NCBI GenBank assembly: GCA_020445785.1
Contig: JAGRFZ010000083.1
Location: forward strand, 10,653-54,192
Source of the DNA: Rhodocyclaceae bacterium
GTDB lineage: Bacteria; Pseudomonadota; Gammaproteobacteria; Burkholderiales; Rhodocyclaceae
Length of the DNA stretch: 43,540 bases
Reading direction: 5' to 3'
Numbering within the stretch: position 1 is the first letter of the stretch; each line of letters opens with the position of its first letter. Position numbers and translations under genes: made by a program. Below are positions 1-14,862 of this stretch, piece after piece. Below the pieces are notes generated by a model. The model made no database searches, was not told the origin of the DNA, and saw only the letters and a program-made list of their open reading frames with translations.

Positions 1-647
1 TCGGCCAGATTCGTGAAGCAAGGTGCCTGGCCGGATCGTCGCACGAAGCGCGCCAGCGCAAGTGGGTCGTTCGAAGCCGTGGCATAGCGCCGTGCCGGAC
101 GCTGGTAGGGGTTTTCGCCTTCGCTCAGTTCCTCGGCGAAGTCGGCGAACACCGCGCGACGAACGCCGCCCGGCGGTGCCTGGGCCGCAAAGTGGCCCGC
201 GGCTTCCACGCAGACCTCGGTGGCGAGGCGTACGCGCAGGGCGTCCGATACCCGGCCCTCCGACGCCAGTTCGTCGAGCACGTCGCACATCTGTTCGGTC
301 GTCGACGCGGCCACCCGCTCGCCCTTGACCGCCAGCATCAACAGCGTGCGACCGCCGACGTCGTTACCGATTCCGGCCGGGTAGGGGCGGACGAAGACCA
401 ACTCGATGCGCGGGCCGGCGGTGCCGGTCAGCGCAGCTTCGATGCGGGGATGCAGGGTCGGCGGGAAGCCGAAGTCCTCGTGCTCATCGGTGAACTCGGC
501 GATTCGCGTGACCGCCAGACCGGCGGCGGCGATCGGTGTGGCGGACTCGTCGCTGGCGAGCAAGTCGAAGCCGGCGCCGACCAGTGCAGTTGCAATGCGC
601 TCGATGCCGGTCGGTGCGTAGCAGGAGATCAGGGCCAGCGGCTTCAA
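1..647 (-). CDS. PurH-like protein (AICAR transformylase/IMP cyclohydrolase paralogue), C-terminus beyond window
   Basis: About 215 N-terminal residues are visible; the gene runs off the left edge. The start is a TTG at 647 overlapping the TGA of the previous gene, so it is translationally coupled as the last visible gene of the sugar operon. The N-terminus (LALISCYAPTGIERIA) matches the MGS-like IMP cyclohydrolase domain of PurH. A TLHP motif, a YP pair, a DVGG segment and an AVKG lysine follow in the same order as in PurH. Around residues 185-200, SEGENPYQ matches the conserved GENPHQ at the start of the transformylase domain. The lysine normally just before TLHP (Lys66 of human ATIC) is Pro here, so cyclohydrolase activity may be lost. 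A housekeeping purH would not normally sit at the end of a glycan operon, so I read this as a repurposed paralogue, perhaps a formyl- or nucleotide-handling enzyme. Family assignment is fairly sure; role is unknown. Confidence 0.72.
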   Translation of the reverse strand, partial: MKPLALISCYAPTGIERIATALVGAGFDLLASDESATPIAAAGLAVTRIAEFTDEHEDFGFPPTLHPRIEAALTGTAGPRIELVFVRPYPAGIGNDVGGRTLLMLAVKGERVAASTTEQMCDVLDELASEGRVSDALRVRLATEVCVEAAGHFAAQAPPGGVRRAVFADFAEELSEGENPYQRPARRYATASNDPLALARFVRRSGQAPCFTNLA

Positions 648-1204
648 GTGCCGCCCTCGTCGCGGCGATGACCTTCGGGTATCGCGTAGTAGATGTTCTC
701 CTCCCAGTCCGGGCAGCGCAGGCGCTGCGGGTTGATGCACGACGGCGTTTCGATCTTCAGGAAGGGGAAGATGTTGTTGAAGCCGGCCGGGCACATGTAC
801 TGGGTGCGCATCGAGCGGGTGGTCGGGAAGACGATGCGGTCGCCGACCTGGTGGCCGTAGTCGCAATGGCCGTGGACCGCCATCACCTCGGCGTGGATCA
901 CGTCGCGCCAGTCGGCGTCGACGCCGGCCTCGAACTTGCCGTCGTTGGGCCGCACCCGCACCAGCACGTCGACCCCTTTCTCGGCCGGGCAGCACACCTG
1001 GCAGTCGCCCTCGTCGTTGTAGGCGTATTTCGCGCCGAACAGTGCGCCGAGGAAATACGGATACAGCGTGTGGTACATGATCGGGCAGACCTTGCTCGGC
1101 AGGATGTTGATCGCGCTGTATTCCTTGCCGGTCTGCTTGTGCTCCCGGTGCCACACGCACTCGGTCTCACCGGGCAGGTGCTTGACGCATAGTTCGCAGC
1201 TCAT
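644..1204 (-). CDS. Cys-rich TIGR04076-like protein with two similar halves
   Basis: A 186-residue soluble protein rich in cysteine. Its ATG overlaps the TGA of the radical SAM gene by four bases, so the two are translationally coupled. The C-terminal half (HGHCDYGHQVGD, then CPAGFNNIFPF, then RCPDWEENIYY) resembles the small Cys-conserved TIGR04076 family. The N-terminal half carries a related pattern (CPIMYHTLYPYF followed by VCCP and a hydrophobic beta-like stretch), so the protein looks like an internal duplication. There is no signal peptide or membrane segment. The clustered cysteines suggest metal or cluster binding, or a substrate or partner of the radical SAM enzyme; this is inference. 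The longer reading frame that begins upstream at 1351 lies inside the radical SAM gene, and its extra residues look like a frame shadow. The family match is from memory of the motif and not a search. Confidence 0.6.
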   Translation of the reverse strand: MSCELCVKHLPGETECVWHREHKQTGKEYSAINILPSKVCPIMYHTLYPYFLGALFGAKYAYNDEGDCQVCCPAEKGVDVLVRVRPNDGKFEAGVDADWRDVIHAEVMAVHGHCDYGHQVGDRIVFPTTRSMRTQYMCPAGFNNIFPFLKIETPSCINPQRLRCPDWEENIYYAIPEGHRRDEGGT

Positions 1205-2310
1205 ATCAGGAAATTCCGGAACCTGTTGTCGTCGCCGTAGCGCGCAAGGATGTCGTTGAGCTTGGAGATGCCGCACACCGCGCATTCGTCGCCGTCGGGC
1301 GGTGTCGTCATGATCACCGCCTCGATCTCGCGCCGCCGCGTGCTGCGCCAAATCTCCTCGAAGCTCTGTTCGTAGAGGCTGCCGAGGGCGAACTCCGGCT
1401 TGCCCCAGGCGCGATAGCAGGAGTAGACGCGTCCGTCCGCGGCAACCACCGGGAAGAACTTGATCCCCTGGCAGAAGCGATCCTTCCAGCAGTCCTTGTA
1501 GACCCCGACGTGGTAGGTGGCGTCGTCGATCGGAAAGCGCACCTTGACGGTGAAATCTTCGCTGTTCAACTCGGTCACCGATTGCTTCATTTCGGCGATC
1601 TGGGCTTCGCTGTAGCCGGTCGAGGTGTTGTTGGCCTGGCGGCCGGGCGTGAACTCAGTGTAGGTCGCCTCCTGGACCACCACGTAGTCCATCCCCAGCT
1701 CGCGCAGAAAGCCGACGATGCGGGCGATCTGGTTGAAATTGTTGCGCTCGACATAGACGGTGCCGAGGAGCGCCACATCGAGGCCTTCCCGTTCGCGCAG
1801 TTCGGCTGCGTCGGCGATGTTGCGCACCAGTTGCTCCCACTGCTTCTCGGAGCAGCCGTGCATCATCGCGTAGCGGGTCTTGTTGCTGTCGAGTACGCTG
1901 AACTTGACGAAGGTGAGGTGGCGCAGGATCTTCTTCTGAATCTTGGGGGTCAGCACCACGCCGGTGGTGGTCAGCGAGAAGCCGAGGCCGCCTTCGGCCC
2001 CGGCGACGATCGCGTCCGGCGTCGCCGGGTGCATCAGCGGTTCACCGGTGCCCTGCAGCGATACCGCCTTGACGCCGATTCGCGGCAGTTCGCGGAACAG
2101 GCCGACGAGCACCTCGTCGTCGATGCGCTGCCCTTTGGTGTCGACCTTGTCCGAATAGCAAAAGCTGCAGTTCTGGTTGCACGACCCGGTCGGGCTGACC
2201 TCGACGATCACCGGCGCGAAATAACGGTCGTGCTGCCAGGCGTGCAACGCGTCGATCTGGAAGATCGTGCGTGGCGCCTCGTAGCCAGCCATGTGGATCT
2301 TGTAGCTCAT
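1201..2310 (-). CDS. Radical SAM protein with SPASM-like C-terminus
   Basis: A 369-residue protein. The [4Fe-4S]-SAM motif CNQNCSFC (C44, C48, C51; CX3CX2C) follows a beta strand, as in canonical radical SAM enzymes, and GTGEPLMHP matches the SAM-binding GGE-type motif. The C-terminal third has further cysteines (CWKDRFCQG, VYSCYRAWG, CAVCG) typical of a SPASM or twitch auxiliary-cluster domain. The ATG at 2310 has an AGGAGAG ribosome binding site and lies 15 bases after the upstream dehydrogenase. SPASM enzymes often modify peptides, proteins or sugars; in this sugar operon, with a coupled Cys-rich neighbour, the substrate could be a sugar nucleotide or that neighbour. I cannot choose. The radical SAM family assignment is secure; the reaction is unknown. 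Confidence 0.88.
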   Translation of the reverse strand: MSYKIHMAGYEAPRTIFQIDALHAWQHDRYFAPVIVEVSPTGSCNQNCSFCYSDKVDTKGQRIDDEVLVGLFRELPRIGVKAVSLQGTGEPLMHPATPDAIVAGAEGGLGFSLTTTGVVLTPKIQKKILRHLTFVKFSVLDSNKTRYAMMHGCSEKQWEQLVRNIADAAELREREGLDVALLGTVYVERNNFNQIARIVGFLRELGMDYVVVQEATYTEFTPGRQANNTSTGYSEAQIAEMKQSVTELNSEDFTVKVRFPIDDATYHVGVYKDCWKDRFCQGIKFFPVVAADGRVYSCYRAWGKPEFALGSLYEQSFEEIWRSTRRREIEAVIMTTPPDGDECAVCGISKLNDILARYGDDNRFRNFLI

Positions 2311-2325
2311 GTGCTCTCCTGGGGC

Positions 2326-3495
2326 TCAGCGGGCGGTGGCGAGGATCGCGCCGACGTCGTCCGCCGTCAGACGGACGAAGTTGCCGATGGTCCCGCTCGG
2401 GTTGCGACGTGCGCAGAGGTTCGCGATGCGGTCGATGGCCTCGTCATCTAGCGTGATGCCGAGGGCCGACAGCCGCGTCGGCATGCCGCTGGCGGCCACC
2501 CGCCGCTCGAACGCATCGACCGCGGCCGCCGCTGTATCCGGACCGATCGGCAGGTCGAGGACGCGCCGGCCGAACTGGACGAATCGCAGCGGATTGCGTG
2601 CGCAGACCGTTTTCATCCATCCGATCATCACCACTGTGACCAGCGGCCCGTGGGCGACGTCGAAGCGGCCGCCAATGGCATGGGCGATGGCGTGCGAGGC
2701 CCAGTCCTGCTTGCGGCCGAGGCCGATGAAGTCATCCTGGGCGAGCTTGCAGGCCCACATCAGCTCGGCCCGCAGCGCGTAGTCGCCGAGTCGTTCGGGC
2801 ACCGCCTGTACGCAGTCCAACAGGGTCAGCAGCAGGGCCTCGATCAGGCGGTCGCTGCAGTCGGTGTGTTCGGTATTGCTGAAATAGCGCTCCAGCAGAT
2901 GGCAGCTGGCGTCGAATGCACCGGCCAAGGTCGCGGCGCCGTCCAGGCCCAGGGTCAGCGTCGGATCGAGGACCGCGATCCGCGGACGTAGGTGCTCACT
3001 GGCGAAGTCGATCTTGAGGCTACGCGCCGGATCGGTGATCACCGCGGCCGGGCTCGATTCGCTGCCGGCACCGGCGACCGTCGGCATCGCACAGATCGGC
3101 AGCGCGCCGACGATCGGTGCCGCCCCGGTCATCAGCGCGAGAACGTCCCCGTCGAAGCAGGCGCCGGCGGCGATCGCCTTGGCCGAGTCGATGACGCTGC
3201 CGCCGCCGACCGCGAGGATGCGATCGACGCGGAGGTCGCGGCACAGCGACACGCCTTCCCGCACCAGCGCCAGTTGCGGGTTGGCGCTGACCCCGCCGAA
3301 TTCGACCCATTCGACGTCGTATGCCCGCAACTCGGCGCGCAGCCGTGCGAGCAGACCGGCGGCCTCGGCGCTGGCGCGACCGTGGTGCATCAGCACCGGT
3401 CCGTCGCCGAGCCGTGTGATTTCGTCGATCCAGTGGCGGGCTGCGTCGGGGCCGAACAGCACCCGGGGCGGGCTCGCGCAGATGCCGTCGATCAC
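2326..3495 (-). CDS. Iron-containing alcohol dehydrogenase family protein
   Basis: A 389-residue NAD(P)-dependent dehydrogenase of the group III (iron) family. Visible signatures are the nucleotide-binding GGGSVIDSAKA, the following PT(V)AGAGSE, a D-x3-H pair in FDASCHLLE, and two later histidines in HAIAHAIGGRF and VAHGPL, which together form the usual metal site. The start is a GTG at 3495 overlapping the TGA of the FkbM gene; no in-frame ATG lies at a sensible place. Within the operon it could reduce a carbonyl on the sugar, for instance the keto group left by the YerE-like enzyme, which in Yersinia is reduced by the unrelated YerF. That role is inference; the family may also act on small aldehydes or on glycerol-1-phosphate-like substrates. 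Confidence 0.85.
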   Translation of the reverse strand: MIDGICASPPRVLFGPDAARHWIDEITRLGDGPVLMHHGRASAEAAGLLARLRAELRAYDVEWVEFGGVSANPQLALVREGVSLCRDLRVDRILAVGGGSVIDSAKAIAAGACFDGDVLALMTGAAPIVGALPICAMPTVAGAGSESSPAAVITDPARSLKIDFASEHLRPRIAVLDPTLTLGLDGAATLAGAFDASCHLLERYFSNTEHTDCSDRLIEALLLTLLDCVQAVPERLGDYALRAELMWACKLAQDDFIGLGRKQDWASHAIAHAIGGRFDVAHGPLVTVVMIGWMKTVCARNPLRFVQFGRRVLDLPIGPDTAAAAVDAFERRVAASGMPTRLSALGITLDDEAIDRIANLCARRNPSGTIGNFVRLTADDVGAILATAR

Positions 3496-4682
3496 GGCCG
3501 GTCGCTCCGCTGGGTGCTGGCGTAGAGTACGGTCTCGGAGACCATGCCCGAGTAGTTGCGCAGATACAGCCGATAGCCGACGCCGAGTCGATCGACGAAC
3601 AGGGGCAGTCGCCACAGGTGGTCGACGCAGTGGTAGGCCGACAGCGCCAGCTCCGGACGGTGGCGCCGCAAGGTCTCGCGGGCGCCGGCCAGCGCGTCGA
3701 GTTCGGCGCCCTCGATGTCCATCGTCAGGTAGGTCGGGCGGAAGTTGAACAGCACTTGATCGAGTGCAACGCAGTGCACGACGGCGTCGCCGGCCGGATC
3801 GATCGAGCTGTTGGTGCTGTGGGCGCTCGAGAAGCGCAGTCGCTGGTTGCTCCGGTGCAGGCCGCAGGGGAACGAAAAGAGCATGTCGGCGATCTGGTCG
3901 CTGTGCTGCGACAGATAGGCGGTCAGCGCGGCGAAATTGCCCGGGTCGGGCTCGAAGCAGGCCACCGCCTGCATCCGCCCGACGTGGCGGCGCGCCTGCT
4001 CGACGGTGTCGCCGGTGAACGCGCCGCAACTGATGTAGCGCGACAGATCGCAGGCCATCGGCAGGTCGCTTGGGAAGTACTGCTCCCGATAGGGTGAGGC
4101 GGGCACGTCGGCGACGCCGTCGGCGTAGGTGCCGAGCACCGCCGCAAAGATGCGTTGGCTGGCGGCGTCGTGGGCGAACAGGGCGAAGGCCCGCTCGATC
4201 TCTTCGGCATGGCTGCGGATGTGGCCGCCGATGTCTTGGAGCAACCCGGCGGGCGTGTAGTGGGTGTGATACTCATAGACGTCGTAGGCGCTGAAGACGA
4301 AGCGAAAGCCGTTTGCCTCCAGCCGGTCGGCGATCTCGGCGCGTACCGCGGCGTCGCCGATGGTGATGAAGACCGCTGCTTCGCGTGCCCACGGCGCTTC
4401 GGCGAGCAACGCCTGCGGGCCGCAACTTGGCCGGCCGGCGAAGCGGCCGTGGCCATCGAAACGCCGATCGACGACGAGCCGCGCTTCGACGCCCATCTTC
4501 TGCAGGCAGAAGCGCTGGAACGTAAAGAACCCGCGTCCGGCCCCGTAGAGCACGACGTCGCGCCCCTGCAGCATGTCCAGCAGGCGGTTGGCGGGTCGCC
4601 AGCGCGAAGCTGTCGGCAGGCGCGACAGTACGCCGGACGTGCGTGCCCGGGACTCGCAGGCGGCCAGGGCGTCGGCATTCAT
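3492..4682 (-). CDS. FkbM-family SAM-dependent methyltransferase
   Basis: A 396-residue protein. The C-terminal half carries the FkbM (Methyltransf_21) hallmarks: a CFEPDPGNFAAL strand-loop, and later LTMDIEGAELDALAGA followed by LALSAYH. The N-terminal ~150 residues form an extra domain with a Rossmann-like start (VVLYGAGRG) and an FITIGD strand, as often found ahead of FkbM domains in polysaccharide loci. The ATG at 4682 overlaps the TGA of the TylF-like gene. FkbM enzymes O-methylate sugars or polyketides; here methylation of a sugar or glycan product is likely. The exact acceptor is not deducible. Confidence 0.85.
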   Translation of the reverse strand: MNADALAACESRARTSGVLSRLPTASRWRPANRLLDMLQGRDVVLYGAGRGFFTFQRFCLQKMGVEARLVVDRRFDGHGRFAGRPSCGPQALLAEAPWAREAAVFITIGDAAVRAEIADRLEANGFRFVFSAYDVYEYHTHYTPAGLLQDIGGHIRSHAEEIERAFALFAHDAASQRIFAAVLGTYADGVADVPASPYREQYFPSDLPMACDLSRYISCGAFTGDTVEQARRHVGRMQAVACFEPDPGNFAALTAYLSQHSDQIADMLFSFPCGLHRSNQRLRFSSAHSTNSSIDPAGDAVVHCVALDQVLFNFRPTYLTMDIEGAELDALAGARETLRRHRPELALSAYHCVDHLWRLPLFVDRLGVGYRLYLRNYSGMVSETVLYASTQRSDRP

Positions 4683-5449
4683 GATTTGACGAAGTAGCTG
4701 ATGTAGGGGTCCTCGCGCATCCGCTTGAGGGGCGGCAGCGGGCCGAGTTCGCGCAATGCCGAGGTCTCGCCCGGATAGTCCTTGCTGTTGAGTTCGTCGA
4801 ACACCACGAGGCCGCCGGCGACCACCCGCGGCAGCAGATGTTCGAGGGCGGCCCGGGTCGGCGCGTAGAGATCGAAGTCCAGATAGAGCAGGCTGATCAG
4901 CAGATGCGGGTTCTCGTCGACGAAGGTCGGGATGGTTTCGCAGGCGTCGCCCTCGATCAGTTCCATCTTCGGTACGTGGGACAAGGGCCGGTTCTGGTCG
5001 TGGAGTTCGCGCAGGAATTCGAGCTCGTCGCGCATGCTCGCGTGGGTGGACAGGGCGCCCACTCGCAGGTCTTCCGAGTTGCCGATGGCGTCGCTGGCGT
5101 GAATGCTCGGGAAGCCGGAGAAGGTGTCGAAGCCGATGATCTTGCGGGTATGGTTGTACGGCTCGAAGATCGTCGAGAAGTGATACCAGGCGAACAGTCC
5201 GCCGCCGGAATAGACGCCGCAGTCCACGATGCTGCCATTGACGTCGAGGATCTGGCGGAACAGCTCGTAGCGCACCAGGAAGCGGGCGATGTCCTGCCGA
5301 CGCACATGCCGCGGGAAGGCATTCAGGCGCGACGTGACGTCGAGCGGAGACTCGAGGAAAGCGCGGGACAGGTCGGCGTACATCCGATGCTCCCGCTCCG
5401 AATGGTTCTTGGTGTAGATGCGCTCGACCGGCGCTGCGTTGTCATTCAT
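4679..5449 (-). CDS. TylF/MycF-type O-methyltransferase
   Basis: A 256-residue methyltransferase of the macrocin O-methyltransferase (TylF) family. Key segments are IVDCGVYSGGGLF (SAM-binding glycine motif), GFDTFSGFP, and LLYLDFDLYAPTRAALEHL with a downstream VVFDELN, which supplies the acidic metal-binding residues of this Mg-dependent family. TylF and MycF methylate deoxysugar hydroxyls, which fits a deoxysugar operon. The ATG at 5449 overlaps the TGA of the ThDP-enzyme gene. Together with the FkbM gene it predicts at least one and probably two methyl groups on the final glycan. Confidence 0.85.
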   Translation of the reverse strand: MNDNAAPVERIYTKNHSEREHRMYADLSRAFLESPLDVTSRLNAFPRHVRRQDIARFLVRYELFRQILDVNGSIVDCGVYSGGGLFAWYHFSTIFEPYNHTRKIIGFDTFSGFPSIHASDAIGNSEDLRVGALSTHASMRDELEFLRELHDQNRPLSHVPKMELIEGDACETIPTFVDENPHLLISLLYLDFDLYAPTRAALEHLLPRVVAGGLVVFDELNSKDYPGETSALRELGPLPPLKRMREDPYISYFVKS

Positions 5450-7338
5450 CGGTGGCTCGCTTCGGCAGGGGTGGCCGCGGCTGGTTGGGCGTCGGTGGGT
5501 GGCTGGTGCTCGCCGCGGGCTTCGAGCGATGCCGGCGACAGCGCGATCGACATTTCCCGGCGGAGCGTCTCGAGCGGCAGCAATGGGCTCATGTCCTCGA
5601 GTGGCATCGAGCGCATCGAGCCGTCGGGCAGCGGAATCGCCGCGCATTTGGGCGCCAGCGTCTCGTCGCGCAGCAGCCGCACGTCGATCACGCAGGGGCG
5701 CGGCAGGGCCATGGCGCGGGTGAGGCCATCGGCCAGTGTGGCGGCGTCGTCCAGGCAAAGGTAGGGGAGCCGGTAGGCCGCTGCCAGTCTTTCCAATTCG
5801 GGCATCGCCAGCCCGGCCTCCGGGCCGGTGCCGAGATAGCGGCCGTCGAAGTAGTTGCGCTGGGTGTTGCGGATCGAGCAGTAGCCGTCGTTGTTCATCA
5901 CCAGCAGACAGATCGGCAGACGGCGTCCGGCCAGCGTTGCCAGCTCCTGCAAATTGAGTTGCAGGCTGCCGTCGGACTCGACCGCGACCATCGGTCTCGA
6001 ACCGTTGCCGAGGCAGGCGCCGATCGCGGCCGGCAGACCGTAGCCCATCGCGCCGAGTCCGGAAGTCAGAAACATGCGCTGGCCGGCCTTGTTGCGGAAG
6101 GCGGTGTAGAAGGCCTCGACCGCGAGGCCGGAGCTGCCGGTGGCGATCAGCGTGTCGGGCGCAATGGCATCGGACAGGGCGTCGGCGAACTGGAAGTGGC
6201 CGATGCGTCCCGAGCTCGGCGCCGTGGCGGCATCGAACACCGGATAGCGCTGTTTCCAGTCGGCAATCCGGGCACGCCATTCGGCCAGCGCGGGCGGCAG
6301 TGCCAGCCCTTCGCTGGCCGCGTCGAGCGCGTCGGTAAATGTGCCGGCGTCCATCGCCAGTGCCAAATCGAGCGTCATGTCCTTGGCGTCGAGTTCGTGC
6401 GGGTCCACGTCCACCATCACCTTGCGCGCCGCGCGTGCGAAGCCGCGCGGATGGTAGGCGGTGATGATGTTGTCGAGGCGGCAGCCGACGCTGATCAGGA
6501 GATCGCAGTTCTGCACCGCGAAGTTGGCGCCGCGGGCTGCGACGACGCCCGGCCTGCCGGCATTGAGGGGGTGATCCCAGGGCAGGATGTCGGTTGCGTT
6601 CCAGGTGGTGGCCAGCGGGACGCCGAGGCGTTCGACCAGCGACCGGAGCCGGCCATCGGCACCGGCCAGGCGTACGCCGTGCCCGGCCAGCAGCAGCGGC
6701 CGTCGGGCTTCCGTCAGCCAGGCCGCGACCGGCGCCAGATCGGGGGGCGCGCCGGTTGCGGGCTGCGGCAGGAGCGCCGGCGGCAGCGTGTCGGCATCCA
6801 CCGGCGCGGCCTGGACGTCGAGCGGCACGTCGAGCCATACCGGCCCCGGCCGCCCGCTGCTCATTGCGTGCAGTGCGGAATCGAGGTGCCGGCGGATGTC
6901 GGCGGGGTCGGTGACGGTGGCGGCGTATTTGGTGACCGAACGCACCATCGGCACGATATCCACCTCCTGCACCCCACCCTGGCGCAGCGGGCGGCCGTTC
7001 AGCCGGTCGGCCCGCTTGGCCTGGCCGGAGATGACCAACAGCGGGATCGAGTCGATCCAGGCGCCGGCCACCGGCGTGATCACGTTGGTGGCGCCGGGGC
7101 CCGTGGTCACGAGGGCGACGCCAAACCCGGGGTTTCCGGCGTGGCCGGTGCGGCCGTAGGCTTCTGCGGCGATGCCGCAGGCCTGCTCGTGGTGGCACGG
7201 TACGGCGGTGAGACGCGGTTCGCAGGCGAGGCCGTCGTCCAGGTGCATGGCACCGCCGCCGGGGAGCACGAAGACATGGCGCAGCCCCTCGTCGGCGAGG
7301 CGTTGCATGATCCAGTCGGCGACTCTGATGCTTGCCAT
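5446..7338 (-). CDS. ThDP-dependent acetolactate-synthase-like enzyme (YerE-like candidate)
   Basis: A 630-residue three-domain thiamine-diphosphate enzyme. The PYR domain has the catalytic Glu51 in PCHHEQACG and the TTGPGATN loop; the middle domain spans roughly 195-350; the PP domain has the cofactor motif at 455-483 (SDGS...NN). The first residue of the usual GDG is Ser here. Size and architecture match acetohydroxyacid synthase large subunits, but there is no small subunit nearby and the gene sits directly in a CDP-sugar operon. In Yersinia, YerE, an enzyme of this family, transfers an acetyl unit from pyruvate to C4 of the RfbH-pathway product to start yersiniose. By context this is the best functional hypothesis. 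Alternatives are another sugar ThDP lyase or a decarboxylase. It starts two bases after the NeuB-like gene. Confidence 0.8.
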   Translation of the reverse strand: MASIRVADWIMQRLADEGLRHVFVLPGGGAMHLDDGLACEPRLTAVPCHHEQACGIAAEAYGRTGHAGNPGFGVALVTTGPGATNVITPVAGAWIDSIPLLVISGQAKRADRLNGRPLRQGGVQEVDIVPMVRSVTKYAATVTDPADIRRHLDSALHAMSSGRPGPVWLDVPLDVQAAPVDADTLPPALLPQPATGAPPDLAPVAAWLTEARRPLLLAGHGVRLAGADGRLRSLVERLGVPLATTWNATDILPWDHPLNAGRPGVVAARGANFAVQNCDLLISVGCRLDNIITAYHPRGFARAARKVMVDVDPHELDAKDMTLDLALAMDAGTFTDALDAASEGLALPPALAEWRARIADWKQRYPVFDAATAPSSGRIGHFQFADALSDAIAPDTLIATGSSGLAVEAFYTAFRNKAGQRMFLTSGLGAMGYGLPAAIGACLGNGSRPMVAVESDGSLQLNLQELATLAGRRLPICLLVMNNDGYCSIRNTQRNYFDGRYLGTGPEAGLAMPELERLAAAYRLPYLCLDDAATLADGLTRAMALPRPCVIDVRLLRDETLAPKCAAIPLPDGSMRSMPLEDMSPLLPLETLRREMSIALSPASLEARGEHQPPTDAQPAAATPAEASHR

Positions 7339-7340
7339 CG

Positions 7341-8831
7341 TCACATCCAGTAGGTGAGCCAGGTCTTGCGCCGTGGATTGCTCGCGATCGCCGGGTCGGT
7401 GTAGTGGGAGTCGTCCTTGACGTGGGTGGATGAGATTTCCTCGAACACCGTCCCGTTCTTGCTGTGGAAGCGGTGCCGTACGCCGCGCTGCACCGTGACG
7501 ACATCGCCGGCGGCGACCCGCTGGTGTGCACCGTCGAGCCAAAGATCGAGTTCGCCATGAAGCACGACGAAGGTCTCTTCCTTCTTCTCGTGGTACTGCT
7601 CCGGATGGGCCTGGCCGGGCAGCATCACCAGCAGCTTCTTGCAGTATTCGCGATTGACGACGGTGACCATGGTCAGCCCGAATTCGTCGAAGCGCTCCAT
7701 GCCGTAGTGGTGGGAGAGTTCGAGATCGGACTTTCCCGGCACGACGATGTTGCCGGCCGACAGCAAGGCCTTGACCCGGGTCACCGCGTCGAGCACGCGG
7801 CCCCGCAGTTGTCGTTCCTCGACCGCCGAGTGGCACACCGGCGCGCCGGCGGCAATTGCCTGGCGGGCGGTGAAGCGGGCGTATTTCGACCAGTCGTTGG
7901 CGGTCAGCTGCCCGTCGTCCGGGGGGAAGGCGAACACCACTGCTGCATCGTCGATCTCGCTGCCGGCGGCGATGTCGCGCGCGGCGAAGACGCCGCGGCG
8001 CAGCGAATGCAGGCTGTCGCGCTCGCCGGCCGACGGTTGGTAGCGATCCGGCCGTCCGCAGATCCGGCGGGCGCGTTCAGCGGCCGTCAGCCAGGCCCGG
8101 ACCTGATCCGGATCGGCCGAATAGGCATTCGCGGCATAGCGCTCGGTCGGTAGTACGACGTGCTTCTCGAATACCGTTGCGCCCTTGGCCAGCGCCATCA
8201 TCACGGCTTCGGTGTTGTCCGGCGACTCGTGGGTCGAATAGCCGATGCGGCAATCCGGGTAACGCCGGCGCAGCAGGTCGACCTGGTTGAGCTGCAAGGC
8301 CTCGTCGGGGGTCGGATACTCGGCGACGCAGTGCATCAGGGTCAGCGCCTTGTGACGATGCAGAAAGAAGCTCACGACCTGGTCGATGAGTTCCTCACTG
8401 GCGCCGGCGGTGGAAGCGATCACCGGCTTGTCGGTGGCGGCGATGCGCTCCATCAGCGGCCAATCGCCGAACGAACAGCTCGCGATCTTGATCGTGTCGA
8501 TGCCGTGGGCCTCGATGCGCGCCACCGAGTTCTCGTCGAACGGGGTACATACGGTGCCGAATCCCATCGCCCGCATTTCCGCCACCAGGGCGCGGAAGGC
8601 GTCGTCGTCGAGCCGGGTCTCCTCGAAGCGCTTGATGTACTTGATGTCGGTGCGGCCCTGCATCGACGGGTGGATGAAGGTGTCGAGGTCCCGGTATTGC
8701 AGCTTGAAAGCGAAGTCGAAGGCCTGTTCGAAGCCACTGCAGGCTTCTCGCAACGCGCGGATCGTGCGAATGCCGTGCGCCGGGTCGCCCATGTGGTTGT
8801 TCGCCATCTCGAATACGAAGAGCGGTTTCAT
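7341..8831 (-). CDS. NeuB-type sialic/nonulosonic acid synthase fused to a cupin domain
   Basis: A 496-residue fusion. Residues 1-260 are a NeuB PEP-condensing barrel: FEMANNHMGD at the start, FKLQYRDL, IKIASCSFGDWPL, GYSTHE and EKHVVLP in family order. Residues about 278-335 match the SAF/antifreeze-like domain (LRRGVFAARDIAAGSEI). Residues about 370-475 form a cupin with a likely metal set around YHEKKEETF, GDVV and H452, resembling lyxose-isomerase-type cupins. NeuB enzymes add PEP to a hexosamine-type sugar. No NeuA-type CMP transferase or NeuC epimerase is visible, so the partner enzymes may lie left of the window or the substrate may be unusual. The ATG at 8831 lies nine bases after rfbH. 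Confidence 0.88.
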   Translation of the reverse strand: MKPLFVFEMANNHMGDPAHGIRTIRALREACSGFEQAFDFAFKLQYRDLDTFIHPSMQGRTDIKYIKRFEETRLDDDAFRALVAEMRAMGFGTVCTPFDENSVARIEAHGIDTIKIASCSFGDWPLMERIAATDKPVIASTAGASEELIDQVVSFFLHRHKALTLMHCVAEYPTPDEALQLNQVDLLRRRYPDCRIGYSTHESPDNTEAVMMALAKGATVFEKHVVLPTERYAANAYSADPDQVRAWLTAAERARRICGRPDRYQPSAGERDSLHSLRRGVFAARDIAAGSEIDDAAVVFAFPPDDGQLTANDWSKYARFTARQAIAAGAPVCHSAVEERQLRGRVLDAVTRVKALLSAGNIVVPGKSDLELSHHYGMERFDEFGLTMVTVVNREYCKKLLVMLPGQAHPEQYHEKKEETFVVLHGELDLWLDGAHQRVAAGDVVTVQRGVRHRFHSKNGTVFEEISSTHVKDDSHYTDPAIASNPRRKTWLTYWM

Positions 8832-8840
8832 GGCATGGTC

Positions 8841-10244
8841 TCAGTCGAAATCCCGCCCGAGAAAGAGGCGGATGCGGTCGGCGGCGTAGTCCAGCATCGC
8901 CTCGTCGAGGCCCGGCCAGACGCCGATCCAGAAGGTGTCGTTCATGACCCGGTCGGTGGTCTCGAGGGAGCCGGCGATCCGGTAGTCGCGTCCGGCCATG
9001 TAGGGCTGGCGGGTGAGGTTGCCGGCGAACAGCAGGCGGCTGGCGATGCGGTGCTGGTCGAGCCAGCGCAGCATCTCGACCCGGTCCAACGCAGCCTCCG
9101 GTTTCAAGGTCAGCGGAAATCCGAACCACGACGGTGTCGAGCCTTCGGTCGCACGCGGCAGGATCAGTGCGTCCTCGCAGTCGGCGAGGCGCTGCGACAG
9201 GTAGTCGAAGTTGTGGCGGCGGGCGGCGATGAAGCCTTCGAGACGGTCCATCTGGGCGAGCGCGCAGGCCGCCTGCATGTCGCTGATCTTCAGGTTGTAG
9301 CCGAGGTGCGAGTAGGTGTACTTGTGGTCGTAGCCGCGCGGCAGCTCCCCCAGTTGCCAGTCGAAGCGCCGACCACAGGTATTGTCGCAGCCGGGTGCGC
9401 ACCAGCAGTCCCGCCCCCAGTCGCGGATCGACTCGGCGATCCGCGCCAATTCGGGTTCGCCACTCAGCACCGCACCGCCTTCGCCCATCGTGATGTGGTG
9501 GGCGGGGTAGAACGACACGGTCGCGAAATGGCCGAAGGCGCCGACGTGGCGCTCACGCAGTTCGGCATCGTCGTGACGACGCCACAGCGATGCGTCGTCG
9601 TCCGGCATGCGCGCCTGCCAGAGCGGCGCGCCGTCGGCGACGCGGTAGCGCGAGCCCAGCGCGTCGCAGCAATCTTCGATCAGCCACAGCCCGTGGCGCG
9701 CGCAGAAATCGGTCACGGTGCCGAGGTCGAATGGATTGCCGAGGGTGTGGGCGAGCACCACCGCTCGGGTGCGTTCGCTCCTGGCCGCTTCGAGCCGATC
9801 GACGTCGACGTCGTAGGTGGCGGCGCGGATGTCGACGAAAACCGGGATCGCGCCATTCTGCAGAATCGGGTTGACGGTGGTCGGAAAGCCGGCGGCCACC
9901 GTGATGATCTCGTCGCCCGGGCGCAGCGCGGCGGCACCGAGGCGGGGCGAGAACAGACTCGACACCGCGACCAGATTGGCCGACGAGCCGGAGTTGACGG
10001 TCAGCGCGCGGGGCAGGGCGAACCATGCGGCCAGGCGCTGCTCGAAGGCCTGGTTGAAGCGTCCGGTGGTCAGCCAGCCGTCGAGGGCGGCCTCGACCAT
10101 GGCCAGACGCTCTGCCGTGCCGACGACCTTGCCCGAGACCGGCACGGGGGTCTGTCCGGGGACGAACTCGTCTGCTTCGGGCTGGGCGTCGCTCCAAGCG
10201 GCGACTGCGGTGCGGACCGCTTCGCGGCTCAGCGATTGCGGCAT
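8841..10244 (-). CDS. rfbH: CDP-6-deoxy-4-keto-glucose-3-dehydrase (RfbH/AscC, E1)
   Basis: A 467-residue PMP- and [2Fe-2S]-dependent dehydrase that removes the C3 hydroxyl of CDP-4-keto-6-deoxyglucose. It has the aminotransferase-like fold ([27 protein letters not shown]). The lysine usual in aminotransferases is replaced by histidine in [14 protein letters not shown] (H249-H250), the hallmark of E1. Cysteines C280, C282 and C290 reproduce the CxCx7C part of the cluster motif, with C193 the probable fourth ligand. About 30 extra residues lie between C193 and the HH pair (roughly 201-232), which explains the length above the usual ~437. The ATG at 10244 overlaps the end of rfbG by 16 bases. 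The E3 reductase gene that normally regenerates the cofactor is not in view. Confidence 0.93.
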
Positions 10245-11287
10245 TGCTCGAAGCGAGCGATGCGCTCGATGCACAGTTCGCGCGGGTTCTCGCCGGCATC
10301 GAAGCGGGCATACCAGTCGCCGGTCAACTCGATCGCTTCTTCCAGTGTGAAGCGGGGCCGCCAGCCCAGGCGCATCATCGCCTTGCTGCTGTCGAGCCGC
10401 AGCATCGCTGCCTCGCGTGGCTGGGGCGAGCCATCGTAGCGCCAGTCGACACCGAGTCGCGGGCACATCAGTTTGCACAACTGCTCGACCGATTCCATGT
10501 CCGCCAGGGCCGGCCCGAAATTCCAGGCGTCGGCTGCCTCGGCATGCCCGCCGAGCAGCCGCTCGCCGAGCAGCAGATAGCCGGACAAGGACTCCAGCAC
10601 ATGCTGCCACGGCCGTACCGCAGAAGGATTGCGAATCAACGCCGGCCGCTTCGAGCGGGCGGCCCGCCACAGGTCGGGGATCAAGCGGTCGCAGGCCCAG
10701 TCGCCGCCACCGATGACGTTGCCGGCCCGCGCGGTGGCGATCAGTGCGGCGCCGGGGCTGTTGCCGAAGCTGGCGCGCCAGGCGTTGGTCGCCAGTTCCG
10801 CAGCGGCCTTGCTTGCCGCATAGGGGTCGTGTCCGCCGAGCGGGTCGGTTTCGCGGTAGCCGAAGGAACTGGTGTCCTCCCGATAGCACTTGTCGCTGGT
10901 GACCACCACCACGGCCTTCACCGAGCCGGTACGCCGCACCGCTTCGAGCAGGTTGGCGGTGCCCATGACATTGGTGCCGAAGGTGCGCAGGGGTTCGGCG
11001 TAGCCGCGCCGGACCAGCGGCTGGGCCGCGAGGTGGAAGACGATCTCCGGGGCGAAGCCCGCCACTGCCTCGGCCACCAGGTCCGGATCGCGGATGTCGC
11101 CGATCATCGATTCGATCCGCTCGTCGAGGCGGGCCTGGACGTACAGCGAGGGTTCGGTGTCCGCCTCCAGGGCGAATCCGCTGACCCGGGCGCCCATGCG
11201 GGACAGCCACAACGCGAGCCAGCTGCCCTTGAAGCCGGTGTGGCCGGTGATCAATACGCGGCGTCCCGCGTAGCTCGAAAATTTCAT
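10229..11287 (-). CDS. rfbG: CDP-glucose 4,6-dehydratase
   Basis: A 352-residue extended short-chain dehydrogenase. The NAD-binding [11 protein letters not shown] is the typical CDP-glucose dehydratase N-terminus, followed by [13 protein letters not shown], the catalytic YAASK and [12 protein letters not shown]. It converts CDP-glucose to CDP-4-keto-6-deoxyglucose, the substrate of RfbH. The ATG at 11287 overlaps the TGA of rfbF. The order rfbF-rfbG-rfbH is the standard CDP-3,6-dideoxyhexose module of Salmonella and Yersinia O-antigen loci. Confidence 0.95.
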
Positions 11288-12057
11288 TGCCAGATCTTCC
11301 AGGGCGCACGGCCACTGAGCCACAGCCGTTCGAGGTTGTGCTTGTCGCGCAAGGTGTCCATCGGCTGCCAGAAGCCATGATGAACGTAGGCGCGCAGTTG
11401 CTCTTGTTCCACCAGGCGCTGCATCGGCGCTCGCTCCCAGTGCGAGCCGTCGCCGTCGATCACGTCGAGTGCGCGCGGCGACAGCACGAAGAAGCCGCCA
11501 TTGATCAGATTGCCGTCTCCGGCGGGTTTTTCCTTGGCACGGGTGACCACGCTGCCGGCCAGGTCGAGCGCGCCGAATCGCCCCGGCGGTGCCACCGCGG
11601 TGACCGTGGCGACCCGGCCGTGGGCTGCGTGAAAGCGCCGCAATGCGCCGAGGTCCACGTCGGCGAGGCCGTCGCCGTAGGTAAAAAAGAAGGACTCTTC
11701 GTCTTCGACATAGGGCCGCACCCGGCGCAGGCGACCGCCGGTCTGGGTTTGTTCGCCGGTATCGACCAGGGTCACCCGCCACGGCTCGGTGTGTTGTTCG
11801 TGCACTTCCATGCGGTTTTCGCGCATGTCGAACGTGACGTCCGAGGTGTGCAGGAAGTAGTTCGCGAAGAACTCCTTGACGACATAGCCCCTATAGCCGA
11901 GGCAGATAATGAACTCGTTGACGCCGTGGGCCGTGAACACCTTCATCAGATGCCACAGGATCGGCCGCCCTCCGATCTCTACCATCGGTTTCGGCTTCGA
12001 CTGAGTCTCCTCGGACAGCCGGGTTCCGAGTCCACCGGCCAGGATCACGGCTTTCAT
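11284..12057 (-). CDS. rfbF: Glucose-1-phosphate cytidylyltransferase
   Basis: A 257-residue nucleotidyltransferase. The N-terminus [18 protein letters not shown] with the signature [11 protein letters not shown], plus [10 protein letters not shown] and [11 protein letters not shown], is diagnostic for RfbF. It makes CDP-glucose from CTP and glucose-1-phosphate. I chose the ATG at 12057 because it gives the conserved N-terminus; an in-frame ATG five codons upstream is possible. A 110-base gap separates it from the HAD gene, so a second promoter may lie there, although I see no convincing -35/-10 pair. Confidence 0.95.
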
Positions 12058-12167: not shown

Positions 12168-12824
12168 TCATGTCAGCAACCGCAGCAGTTCGGCCGGGTC
12201 GGCTGCCGCACGCCAGCCGTGTTTGAGTTGTTCGTGGGGCAGGCTGCCGTAGCCCCAGGTGGCGGCGAAGAAGGGGAGTCCGTTGGCGTCTGCCGCCAGC
12301 CCATCCTCCTCTCGGTCGCCGACATAGACGGCATCCGCACGGTCGATGCCGTGGTCGGCGAGCAGGCGCGCGATCATCGCCGGCTTGTCGGCCAGCCGGG
12401 TGGCGAACAGATCGAGGGCATAGACCGCCGCAAAGCACGGCGACCAGCCGAGGTGCTCGAGGATGAGTCGGGTCGGATGGATGCGCTTGTTGGTAGCGAT
12501 CGCCAGCCGGCAACCGGCATCGTTCAGGCTGGCGAGCATGTCGGCGACACCGGCGTAGGCTTCGGTGGCGCGGTAGCCGGTGCTGTCGTAGCTGGCCTTG
12601 AAGGCCTCGGCCAGGGCTTCGACGCGCGAGGACTGGTGGTTGCCGCACAGCAGTGCGAGGGTTTCCAGCAGCGGAGGGCCGATGATGTTCTCGTCGATCG
12701 GCCGCACCGGTTCGATGCCGCAACGTGCGAAGGCATCGGCGAAGCTCGCGAGAATGGCCGGCGCCGAATCGATCAGGGTGCCGTCGAGGTCGAACAGGAC
12801 ATGAGGATAGGGTGGGGCGCGCAT
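12168..12824 (-). CDS. HAD-family phosphatase, phosphoglycolate-phosphatase-like
   Basis: A 218-residue HAD hydrolase: nucleophile motif FDLDGTLIDS near the N-terminus, ATNK (motif II) near residue 110, KPAMIARLL (motif III lysine) and VYVGDREEDGLAA (motif IV). A Gph-like helical cap occupies about residues 20-90. It is the first gene of the sugar operon in transcription order and could remove a phosphate from a sugar-phosphate precursor, for instance the product of the NeuB-like enzyme if that takes a phosphorylated substrate. Its HAD class is secure; its substrate is not. Confidence 0.87.
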   Translation of the reverse strand: MRAPPYPHVLFDLDGTLIDSAPAILASFADAFARCGIEPVRPIDENIIGPPLLETLALLCGNHQSSRVEALAEAFKASYDSTGYRATEAYAGVADMLASLNDAGCRLAIATNKRIHPTRLILEHLGWSPCFAAVYALDLFATRLADKPAMIARLLADHGIDRADAVYVGDREEDGLAADANGLPFFAATWGYGSLPHEQLKHGWRAAADPAELLRLLT

Positions 12825-13032: not shown

Positions 13033-14862
13033 CTAGGCCGTCATCACCCGATTCTTGCCTGCACGCTTGGCCAGGTACATGGCGCGATCGGCCCGTGCGA
13101 TCGCCGCCTCGGCATTCTCCTCGTCGGCAATGCGGGTGATGCCCGCGCTGAAAGTGATCAACAGCTTGCTGTTGCCGGCCAGGAAGTAGCGTTTGGTCAA
13201 CGCTCGCTGAAGACGGGTCAATGCCACCATCGCGTCTTCGCTGTCGGTGTCCGGCAGCACGATGACGAACTCCTCGCCGCCGTAACGGGCCACCGAATCC
13301 TGGGGGCGCACGTTTTCGCGGATCACTGCGGCGAGGTGGCGCAGCGCGTCGTCACCGGCGTGATGTCCGTAGGTGTCGTTGAGCTGCTTGAAGTTGTCCA
13401 CGTCGAGCAGGCCGATGCACAGCGGTGTCCCGCGCCGGCGGGCGCGGCTGATCTCGCGCGCCAAAGCGTCGTCCATGCCCTTGCGGTTGAGGGCGCCGGT
13501 GAGGGCATCGTGGCGCACCATTTCGCTGGCCTGGTCGAGCTCGTGCTGAAGGCGGCCGATCTCGACGTTGGCGGCCTCGACCTGGTCCTTCAGGGCGTTG
13601 ATCTCCCGGTGCGAGCGCTCGGCCGAGCCCTGGGCGATGCGGGTCTGCTGCAGGATCTCCTCTACCGCGTCCGATATCTCGGTGATGTCCTCGGCCTTGG
13701 CCACGCGCTCGGCGCAGCGGCCGATGGCGTCGTGGTACTCGCCGGTGGTGGCGCTGAATTCGGCGAGCCGATCGACAAAACCCGCCAGCATCGTCTTGAG
13801 TCGACGCTGGGCTTCGCTCAGTTCCTGCTTGAGGTGCCCCTGCTTGTCGATGACGTCGCGCAGGCGGCGTTCGACGTCGTCGAGCGTGCGCACGTCGATG
13901 GGCTTGTCGGCGAAGGCTTCGTTCAGGACGGAGAGCTGGCCGTGCAGCCAGCGATCGTCGAAAACCAGTTGGCTGATGTTCTGCAGGATCAGCCGCAGCA
14001 CCCCCACCAGTCCGCTGCGCACTGCGACCTGCTCCTCGGCGACCCATTCGAGCCGCTTGACCACCGCATCGAGGCGGTGACGACAGCCCTCGTCGCGCAG
14101 CCGGGCCGGCGTGTCGCGTAGCTCTCCGGCCAGCGCATGCAGCTCCCCGACCAGATCGGGGACGTCGACGATCAGCGGCGACAGGCCGTCGTCGAGCAGT
14201 TGGGCGATCAGTGTCGCGAGCCCGCCGTCGGTCGCTTCGGAGACCGGCTCCTGCACCGCGGGCGGCGTCGAGGGCTCGCCGGTGCGATCGACCGGCGCGG
14301 CACTCGGCACCGGTCTGGTGGCTTCGTCTGCCACCGCCGGCTGCCCGCCCGGGTTTTCGCTGTCGGCGTCATCGACGGCTGCGTCCGACTGGTGGTGCCG
14401 CCAGCCCTTGATCAAACCGCCGACCCGCTGGTGAAGCGTCGCGGCGTCGGCGGTCGACGTCAACACGTGCTGCAGCGCTTCGCGCTTGCGGGCGGCCGTG
14501 AGGCCGTGGTGCACGCGTTCGTATTCGCCCACCAGGTCGCGGATCGCAGGGCCCCATTGCAGGGGCTCGCGGTCACCGCCGGAGCACAGTTCGGTGATCA
14601 ACGCGGCGAATGGATCCCACTCGCCCTTGGCGACGCACTGCTCGAGCCGGCGGGCGCTGCGCGCCGCCTCCGGGTTGTCGCGCGGCAGGCTGGCTGCCAG
14701 ACTCTTGAGTCGGCGGGACGGGAAGGCCTCCTGGGGCGTGCTGCCGGCCACTTCGTGGTAGAGCCGTTCGAAGTTGGCCGGGGTTGGTGGCACGCGCCTT
14801 TGTGCCAGCAGCCGGAAGGTTTCGCGCGCGATCTCGGTGGGGTTGTTACGGTCGACGGCCAT
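13033..14862 (-). CDS. Diguanylate cyclase (GGDEF) with long N-terminal coiled-coil region
   Basis: A 609-residue cytoplasmic protein. The C-terminal ~165 residues are a GGDEF domain with active-site GGEEF at 528-532, and RPQD at 519-522 exactly five residues before it, an intact allosteric inhibitory site. It therefore probably makes cyclic-di-GMP and is product-inhibited. Residues 1-150 are helical and residues 150-205 are a low-complexity, Pro- and acid-rich linker. Residues 205-430 are mostly helical or coiled coil without a recognised sensor domain. No membrane segments are seen. The layout resembles cytoplasmic cyclases with N-terminal helical repeats found in beta- and gammaproteobacteria. 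Confidence 0.92.
   Translation of the reverse strand: MAVDRNNPTEIARETFRLLAQRRVPPTPANFERLYHEVAGSTPQEAFPSRRLKSLAASLPRDNPEAARSARRLEQCVAKGEWDPFAALITELCSGGDREPLQWGPAIRDLVGEYERVHHGLTAARKREALQHVLTSTADAATLHQRVGGLIKGWRHHQSDAAVDDADSENPGGQPAVADEATRPVPSAAPVDRTGEPSTPPAVQEPVSEATDGGLATLIAQLLDDGLSPLIVDVPDLVGELHALAGELRDTPARLRDEGCRHRLDAVVKRLEWVAEEQVAVRSGLVGVLRLILQNISQLVFDDRWLHGQLSVLNEAFADKPIDVRTLDDVERRLRDVIDKQGHLKQELSEAQRRLKTMLAGFVDRLAEFSATTGEYHDAIGRCAERVAKAEDITEISDAVEEILQQTRIAQGSAERSHREINALKDQVEAANVEIGRLQHELDQASEMVRHDALTGALNRKGMDDALAREISRARRRGTPLCIGLLDVDNFKQLNDTYGHHAGDDALRHLAAVIRENVRPQDSVARYGGEEFVIVLPDTDSEDAMVALTRLQRALTKRYFLAGNSKLLITFSAGITRIADEENAEAAIARADRAMYLAKRAGKNRVMTA

Follow-up and report, generated by a model that had tools for sequence, protein, structure and literature searches.

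A NeuB-cupin fusion paired with a YerE-like ThDP carboligase probably supplies the donor for a C4-branched CDP-3,6-dideoxyhexose in a Rhodocyclaceae bacterium

In the described YerE, ErwE and MygE pathways a YerE-like carboligase that depends on thiamine diphosphate (ThDP) acts on a CDP-4-keto-3,6-dideoxyhexose acceptor and yields a C4-branched sugar of a surface glycan, as set out in the sections of a review available to us (PMC12247030). The same sections give pyruvate as the donor of YerE and yersiniose as its product, 4-hydroxy-2-oxo acids as the preferred donors of ErwE and erwiniose as its product, caryophyllose as the sugar of MMAR_2332, and gastriose as the sugar of MygE from Mycobacterium gastri, which used C3-C8 2-oxo acids with benzaldehyde. 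Caryophyllose is described in the available part of PMC5706390 as 3,6-dideoxy-4-C-(1,3,4,5-tetrahydroxyhexyl)-xylo-hexopyranose. Its branch carries oxygen at 1' and 3' and CH2 at 2', which is the mark of a 4-hydroxy-2-oxo acid that was decarboxylated and transferred. Acids of this type are the products of NeuB-type synthases and pyruvate aldolases. Here we analysed an operon in a 43,540-nucleotide stretch of DNA (the window) from a Rhodocyclaceae bacterium (assembly GCA_020445785.1), which corresponds to bases 10653-54192 of contig 212 (JAGRFZ010000083.1) in a draft genome of 4.58 Mb in 231 contigs; plain coordinates below are window coordinates. This operon resembles the described pathways in its acceptor and carboligase genes and differs from them in the NeuB-cupin fusion gene (often with a HAD gene) that stands beside the ThDP gene as the proposed donor maker, and in the ThDP motif ESDGS. 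On the strength of gene pairing, phylogeny and product chemistry we read the operon as the probable source of a CDP-activated 3,6-dideoxyhexose whose C4 bears a long polyhydroxylated branch; the donor of this branch would come from the NeuB-cupin.

An initial annotation made from the letters alone had predicted a CDP-3,6-dideoxyhexose module joined to a YerE-like ThDP enzyme, and all of the genes that it named are present on the minus strand. The module was judged by curated NCBIfam equivalog cut-offs and all three members scored above them: RfbF, the glucose-1-phosphate cytidylyltransferase (11284..12057; TIGR02623, 437 bits, cut-off 300), RfbG, the CDP-glucose 4,6-dehydratase (10229..11287; TIGR02622, 450 bits, cut-off 278), and RfbH, the CDP-6-deoxyhexulose 3-dehydrase (8841..10244; NF011936, 689 bits, cut-off 423). 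RfbH has a His at the place of the pyridoxal phosphate lysine and a C-x-C-x3-C-x3-C cluster. These genes are followed by a NeuB-SAF-cupin fusion of 496 aa (7341..8831, minus strand), with Pfam NeuB, SAF and Cupin_2 all over cut-off, and by the YerE-like ThDP carboligase of 630 aa (5446..7338, minus strand), in which three Pfam ThDP domains were over cut-off and the motif ESDGS replaces GDG.

The pairing of the last two genes was measured by scanning named genomes with a NeuB-cupin alignment (A1) and keeping the best 80 of 386 relatives. Genes in these 80 loci were counted by tblastn in stretches of at most 10 kb per side, many of which stop at contig ends, so that the counts are lower bounds. 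In 77 of the 80 loci a ThDP relative lay downstream on the same strand and started no more than 1.5 kb away, and this held for 74 of 77 after dropping L096, L103 and L119, which lie on the same contigs as A1 members. As a control we used 30 loci with canonical NeuB (the best-scoring ones, one per genome), none of which had a ThDP match in stretches of 2.2-3.8 kb, as compared to 77 of 80 within 4 kb. RfbH was matched in 67 of the 80 loci, RfbG in 59, RfbF in 57, a short-chain dehydrogenase (SDR) in 57, HAD in 34 (at least 45 bits) and a C-methyltransferase in 28. The NeuB-type synthase, which had been thought foreign to any sugar pathway, is thus a regular companion of the ThDP gene. Carriers named by record title include Thauera, Zoogloea, Chromobacterium, Pseudomonas, Rhodoblastus, Methylobacterium and mycobacteria, together with metagenome-assembled genomes (MAGs) labelled Chlorobiaceae, Acidobacteria, Nitrospiraceae and Gemmatimonadetes.

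Searches from either gene gave a similar picture. From the ThDP side, 17 of 397 other genomes in a phylum sample matched at E<=1e-110, nine of them at 50-59% identity and eight at 36-43%. NeuB-cupin was adjacent in six of the nine (L029-L034), and the remaining three genomes carry a NeuB-cupin elsewhere (57-58% identity), two of these three ThDP genes lying at a contig edge. No NeuB-cupin was found at E<=1e-20 in the five genomes searched from the 36-43% group (G325, G424, G450, G310 and G371), with one weak NeuB-type match in G325. From the NeuB side, three of 273 other genomes in a class sample matched at E<=1e-60: G160 with the order RfbF-RfbG-RfbH-NeuB-cupin-ThDP, G068 with the same order but a NeuB lacking the cupin, and G227. 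A plasmid search returned only partial matches below 60% identity for NeuB and none at E<=1e-80 for ThDP. The G160 cassette (L007:253-5434) lies directly downstream of genes reading by eye as flgH, flgI, flgJ, flgK and flgL, and its sugar may decorate flagellin.

To place the ThDP enzyme, sequences of at least 450 aa were obtained from 102 of 107 loci (104 sequences; none from L087, L091, L097, L135 or L136) and a FastTree tree of 101 tips was built after removing three duplicates. Five tips are other ThDP genes of this genome, and YerE itself is absent from the tree. The 96 YerE-like candidates formed one clade (support 0.926) separate from the genome's two acetohydroxyacid synthase (AHAS)-like genes. 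The 82 sequences with at least 46% identity to the window enzyme formed a clade (support 0.735), and these 82 with L102, L105 and L115 formed a clade of 85 (support 1.0) holding all NeuB-cupin partners. An exchange of partners was considered for L105 and L115 and rejected because the tree puts both inside this single clade. At the GDG position the 82 sequences read SDG in 72 (including the window enzyme), GDG in eight, TDG in one and were unreadable in one, and the 14 other YerE-like sequences read GDG in 12, CDG in one and fell outside the pattern in one.

The nearest solved structure by sequence was JanthE (8rph, 377 bits), as compared to 275 bits for the best AHAS in the PDB (AHAS II), and the enzyme scored 325.7 bits against the AHAS model TIGR00118, below its cut-off of 538. 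A housekeeping AHAS was rejected on the separation in the tree and the missed cut-off. Judged by these comparisons the enzyme is YerE-like and no housekeeping acetolactate synthase, in line with the initial annotation, which had named this phylogeny as a check. A phosphonate pathway combining the ThDP enzyme with the iron-containing alcohol dehydrogenase (Fe-ADH) was also rejected, as the best ThDP matches were acetolactate-synthase-type models and JanthE; phosphoenolpyruvate (PEP) mutase was not looked for. Both JanthE, the closest solved relative, and the window enzyme have non-canonical motifs, CDG in the former versus SDG in the latter. According to the available sections of PMC12247030, JanthE accepts plain 2-oxo acids of short to longer chain, for example pyruvate and 2-oxovalerate. 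A ThDP gene with the JanthE-type CDG motif also occurs at L045:8862-10688, and no sugar or donor genes were recognised near it.

The NeuB half has 3g8r as its nearest solved structure by sequence (468 bits). Residues were counted in 85 NeuB-cupins, with three duplicate loci excluded, and compared to 30 canonical NeuB sequences. H201 and H224, which we take to be the metal His pair, and K115, presumably the active-site Lys, were kept in all 85. The SAF-domain Arg equivalent to R314 of 1xuu, which we take to bind the N-acetyl group, occurred in 28 of the 30 canonical sequences and in 0 of 85 NeuB-cupins, which have F or I there; two of the 85 have an Arg one or two columns off that position, and the sibling entries 4ipi and 4ipj have A or K in place of R314 of 1xuu. 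The Arg was also missing in L008, L009 and L043 and was kept in the second NeuB copies of L047 and L048. The NeuB-cupin therefore shares the NeuB and SAF domains, the metal His pair and the active-site Lys with the sialic, legionaminic and pseudaminic acid synthases, and is distinguished from them by its C-terminal cupin, the missing SAF Arg and the ThDP partner; a single weak query found no CMP-transferase gene in the 80 loci.

The cupin half was compared by profile and by structure. PF07385 was matched by all 18 cupin members scanned, and the best PDB profile match was the D-lyxose isomerase 2y0o (E 1.3e-15). A Foldseek search again placed 2y0o at rank 1 (E 2.3e-11, TMq 0.76), with ranks 1-10 all D-lyxose or related sugar isomerases. 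This search used a model of the cupin with pLDDT 92.6, and the whole-chain NeuB-cupin model was mediocre (pTM 0.55) and was not used. According to the model, the cupin half is a D-lyxose-isomerase fold. Other cupins also matched, more weakly (682 at E<=0.001). Three metal ligands, H414, E419 and H453, were invariant in 85 of 85 sequences. We take H69, H71, E82 and H137 to be the metal ligands of 2y0o, and their positions agree with the alignment.

The named loci include one from a species for which a branched sugar has been reported, as the titles of Gilleron 1993 and 1994, available to us through the reference lists of PMC5706390 and PMC7261415, name a C4-branched 3,6-dideoxy-hexopyranose in M. 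gastri. The locus is L123 of M. gastri strain DSM 43505, where the ThDP gene and then a HAD gene follow the NeuB-cupin gene. RfbH and RfbG lie upstream on the opposite strand, and a methyltransferase-like gene (by eye) and an SDR gene lie downstream. This ThDP gene is most likely that of MygE because it is the sole YerE-like one in the M. gastri genome (643 bits, next 204). The gastriose branch is presumably a heptyl side chain with two O-methyls, and the product of the window operon would be closer to gastriose than to yersiniose. A caryophyllose chain (a C6 branch ending in CH3) had been considered and was dropped for a gastriose-like chain after M. gastri appeared among the named loci. The caryophyllose producers Trinickia caryophylli and Mycobacterium marinum were not among the 80 loci.

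The pathway that we propose would begin with RfbF, RfbG and RfbH, which by family should give CDP-4-keto-3,6-dideoxyglucose. An aldose would arise in the cupin half through isomerisation of a ketose, probably a pentulose or pentulose phosphate. The NeuB half would condense this aldose with PEP to a 3-deoxy-2-ulosonic acid of about C8, and the HAD enzyme would strip any phosphate from the product. The ThDP enzyme would then decarboxylate the ulosonic acid, not pyruvate, and the acyl carbanion would join the C4 ketone of the CDP sugar. An SDR would reduce the new 1' ketone, methyltransferases would decorate the sugar and glycosyltransferases would place it in a surface glycan. The initial annotation had assigned ketone reduction to the Fe-ADH, and the recurrent SDR (57 of 80 loci) is the more likely candidate as compared to the Fe-ADH (3 of 80). 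The Fe-ADH together with the radical SAM, TIGR04076 and PurH-like genes may add a further modification, possibly a formyl group. The logic resembles the KDO route, in which KdsD, KdsA and KdsC act as isomerase, PEP-condensing synthase and phosphatase to give 3-deoxy-octulosonate. Unlike that route, other protein families are used here, isomerase and synthase are fused in the NeuB-cupin, and the product would be decarboxylated and transferred rather than CMP-activated.

YerE-like branching with long donors was already known and, as far as checked, the NeuB-cupin donor route is apparently an undescribed variant of it. A literature search returned no paper linking NeuB with these genes, although the primary ErwE and JanthE papers or the Krug 2024 survey may already propose it. 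The word 'phosphoenolpyruvate' is absent from the available text of PMC12247030, and 'aldolase' appears there in connection with other reactions.

Among the alternatives, the one that survives best accepts the pairing and holds that the aldose is no pentose, the cupin being regulatory or an epimerase and the branch of another length. Cupin folds serve many reactions, hundreds of other cupins also matched, the first metal ligand differs from that of the lyxose isomerase, and L009 and L043 pair a cupin-less NeuB with a ThDP gene. We regard this as possible though doubtful, given that the best profile and structure matches are D-lyxose isomerases and that the M. gastri heptyl branch, as we take it to be, needs a C5 aldose.

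A second alternative is that the ThDP enzyme moves a two-carbon unit from pyruvate, as in yersiniose, and that the NeuB-cupin serves another branch of metabolism. This was also the expectation of the initial annotation, and it draws on the YerE-like character of the window enzyme and on the use of pyruvate by YerE itself (PMC12247030, available sections). It would predict no constant NeuB partner, whereas 77 of 80 loci were paired. The three genomes without adjacency keep a NeuB-cupin elsewhere, the five tested genomes with other ThDP types have none, and other ThDP branches carry aldolase genes for longer 2-oxo acids. Transfer of two carbons is therefore unlikely, and the transferred chain is probably the long polyhydroxyacyl product of the NeuB-cupin.

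It is unlikely that the NeuB-cupin makes a nonulosonic acid that is separately activated and linked as its own sugar beside the branched one. In favour of this reading, the fusion clearly belongs to the NeuB family, and a NeuB-cupin relative in L008 adjoins a CMP-transferase-like gene. Against it, the canonical NeuB Arg is lost, the ThDP gene is adjacent across records of several phyla, and a CMP-nonulosonate synthetase (NeuA)-like gene was matched in 0 of 80 loci at 50 bits or more, with a single weak query that recovered only three of the 30 canonical loci. The likely product remains a branched, methylated sugar, as first suggested, and the nonulosonic link suggested with it is the less likely part.

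Several observations weigh against the proposed donor route. The scan was biased, as six of the eight A1 sequences had been found through a ThDP neighbour and keeping the best 80 favours paired loci. All partners fall in a single clade (85 tips, support 1.0), which suggests that the pairing may be a single old association; 77 of 80 does not stand for 77 independent events because partners of one clade may be inherited or moved as a unit. The ThDP gene was absent from three of the 80 loci (L087, L091 and L097), and the HAD gene was matched in just 34 of 80. In G227 (L008:12851-15714) a NeuB-cupin relative of 43% identity sits beside HAD and CMP-transferase-like genes with no ThDP match in a 17-kb stretch that ends 2.6 kb past the NeuB-cupin gene, and its product is perhaps a conventional CMP-activated one. 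At the position of the first cupin metal ligand, 82 of 85 sequences have Gln and three have His. No gene for an RfbH reductase was seen in the operon; three homologues of an L040 query (RfbI-like by eye) elsewhere in the genome are candidates, the best at 35% identity. The available sections of PMC12247030 describe MygE as showing no activity towards ketones in vitro. An O-antigen of Pseudomonas WCS358 is described in the available part of PMC4509608 as glucose and quinovosamine with no branched sugar, a result that the citing authors doubt from gene content; the WCS358 species record (P. capeferrum) is L076 in our locus set, the genes of which may or may not be those of that O-antigen locus. 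Finally, the proposed chain length rests on the side chain of the M. gastri sugar, presumably a heptyl.

The operon is larger than first annotated and runs beyond both of the ends described. From RfbF through the PurH-like gene adjacent genes overlap by 4-16 bp or sit 2-15 bp apart, and because of this tight spacing their co-transcription is likely. Upstream of RfbF lies a gene for a HAD-type phosphatase of 218 aa (12168..12824, minus strand; Pfam HAD_2, 88.8 bits), which probably belongs to the operon because copies 79% and 66% identical precede the same genes in L046 and L048; it is 31% identical to the HAD next to the M. gastri pair. At the other end a run of N at contig positions 10542-10652, immediately left of the window, interrupts the PurH-like gene. 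Left of this gap the operon resumes with the rest of the PurH-like gene followed by genes for a C-methyltransferase, a NUDIX protein, a GT2 glycosyltransferase, an SDR, a second radical SAM protein, a 263-aa protein and a 1209-aa glycosyltransferase. The 263-aa protein had no Pfam or NCBIfam match and adjoins the second radical SAM/SPASM protein, rSAM2 (L002:3859-4650 and L002:4690-5802); rSAM2 was found in 28 and the 263-aa protein in 21 of the 80 loci, often close to NUDIX and C-methyltransferase genes. Immediately upstream of the operon on the same strand is a GGDEF diguanylate cyclase gene (13033-14862), and between 15661 and 42063 are histidine-kinase and multi-PAS sensor genes, a periplasmic binding protein gene, a DUF808 gene and an HD-domain gene (10 open reading frames scanned together with 13033-14862). 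An Rfam scan of the window gave no matches.

Downstream of the ThDP gene the two methyltransferases, the Fe-ADH, the radical SAM protein and the Cys-rich protein that had been annotated were all recovered over cut-off, each on the minus strand. They are a TylF-type O-methyltransferase (4679..5449; PF05711, 42.8 bits), an FkbM-family methyltransferase (3492..4682; PF05050, 47.8 bits; TIGR01444, 61.6 bits), the Fe-ADH (2326..3495; PF00465, 140.7 bits), the radical SAM/SPASM protein rSAM1 with the motif CNQNCSFC (1201..2310; PF04055, 50.6 bits; PF13186, 37.7 bits) and a TIGR04076-family protein with 11 Cys in 186 aa (644..1204; 35.8 bits, cut-off 33). The N-terminal part of a PurH (AICARFT/IMPCHase)-like protein follows (1..647, minus strand; TIGR00355, 43.6 bits, cut-off 528), and its second half lies beyond the N gap (L002:9796-10541; PF01808 AICARFT, 52.7 bits); the latter scored 95.3 bits against a curated PurH cut-off of 402, both halves being fragments. 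The PurH-like protein is a paralogue, as initially annotated, because the housekeeping PurH (421.7 bits) sits on a separate contig.

This last block is rare. Fe-ADH, rSAM1, TIGR04076 and PurH-like genes occur in the same order in a Zoogloea MAG (L049), which at the cut-offs used was the only one of 80 loci with the rSAM1/TIGR04076/PurH-like block, and at E<=1e-70 none of 397 other genomes had a match to rSAM1. The initial annotation had proposed that a gene set confined to this genome would count against it; the core recurs in many genomes and the block is nearly confined to this one. The L049 PurH-like copy keeps a Lys-His pair, which we take to be catalytic in PurH, in AKHGNACG, and in the operon analysed here that pair falls in the gap. 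The loop GAGQMSR of the housekeeping PurH is GGGPST in the L049 copy. Because the pair is kept while the loop differs, one may guess, and no more than guess, that the protein transfers a formyl group to some other acceptor.

Other donor-making enzymes were found beside other ThDP genes. Separate associations of ThDP and NeuB genes exist in L009 and L043, where another ThDP branch is associated with a cupin-less NeuB that adjoins the ThDP gene in L043, and in the second copies of L047 and L048. L040 carries RfbF-RfbG-RfbH and an HpaI-type aldolase beside the ThDP gene (over the Pfam and below the NCBIfam cut-off), and both L040, further on, and L044 carry an acetaldehyde dehydrogenase and a 4-hydroxy-2-oxovalerate aldolase, all four over cut-off. 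HpcH/HpaI was matched weakly in L038 and L042 (31 and 35 bits; cut-off 25), and in L039, L041 and L045 no donor-making gene was recognised by eye. Two Rhodocyclaceae MAGs have a second gene set after the NeuB-cupin/ThDP pair (L048:10320-16865 and L047:6957-13499). It comprises genes for a DegT-type aminotransferase, for a further ThDP enzyme (39%; motif GDG in L048) and for a NeuB of canonical type with the SAF Arg, together with genes resembling by eye a short-chain dehydrogenase and KAS III. This set may be a second ThDP/NeuB cassette, possibly for an amino sugar.

With about even confidence we suggest that a family of branched sugars arose in bacteria through exchange of the donor-making enzyme (NeuB-cupin, NeuB, HpcH/HpaI or MhpE-type aldolase) beside one kind of carboligase, that the NeuB-cupin route is widespread and uses a dedicated ThDP enzyme, mostly with the SDG motif, that the acid made by the NeuB-cupin is 3-deoxy-octulosonate-like, and that the rare block may formylate the sugar in this organism. 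The structures of gastriose and caryophyllose are known, and the parts of the literature examined assign no origin to their donor acids. If the proposed route is true, a relative of sialic acid synthase would prove to make the transferred chain instead of nonulosonic acids, and ThDP enzymes that lack known natural substrates would gain a matched donor maker. Many clusters otherwise annotated as sialic acid synthase plus acetolactate synthase could be assigned to a concrete class of products, and the branch would be predictable from the kind of donor enzyme encoded beside the ThDP gene.

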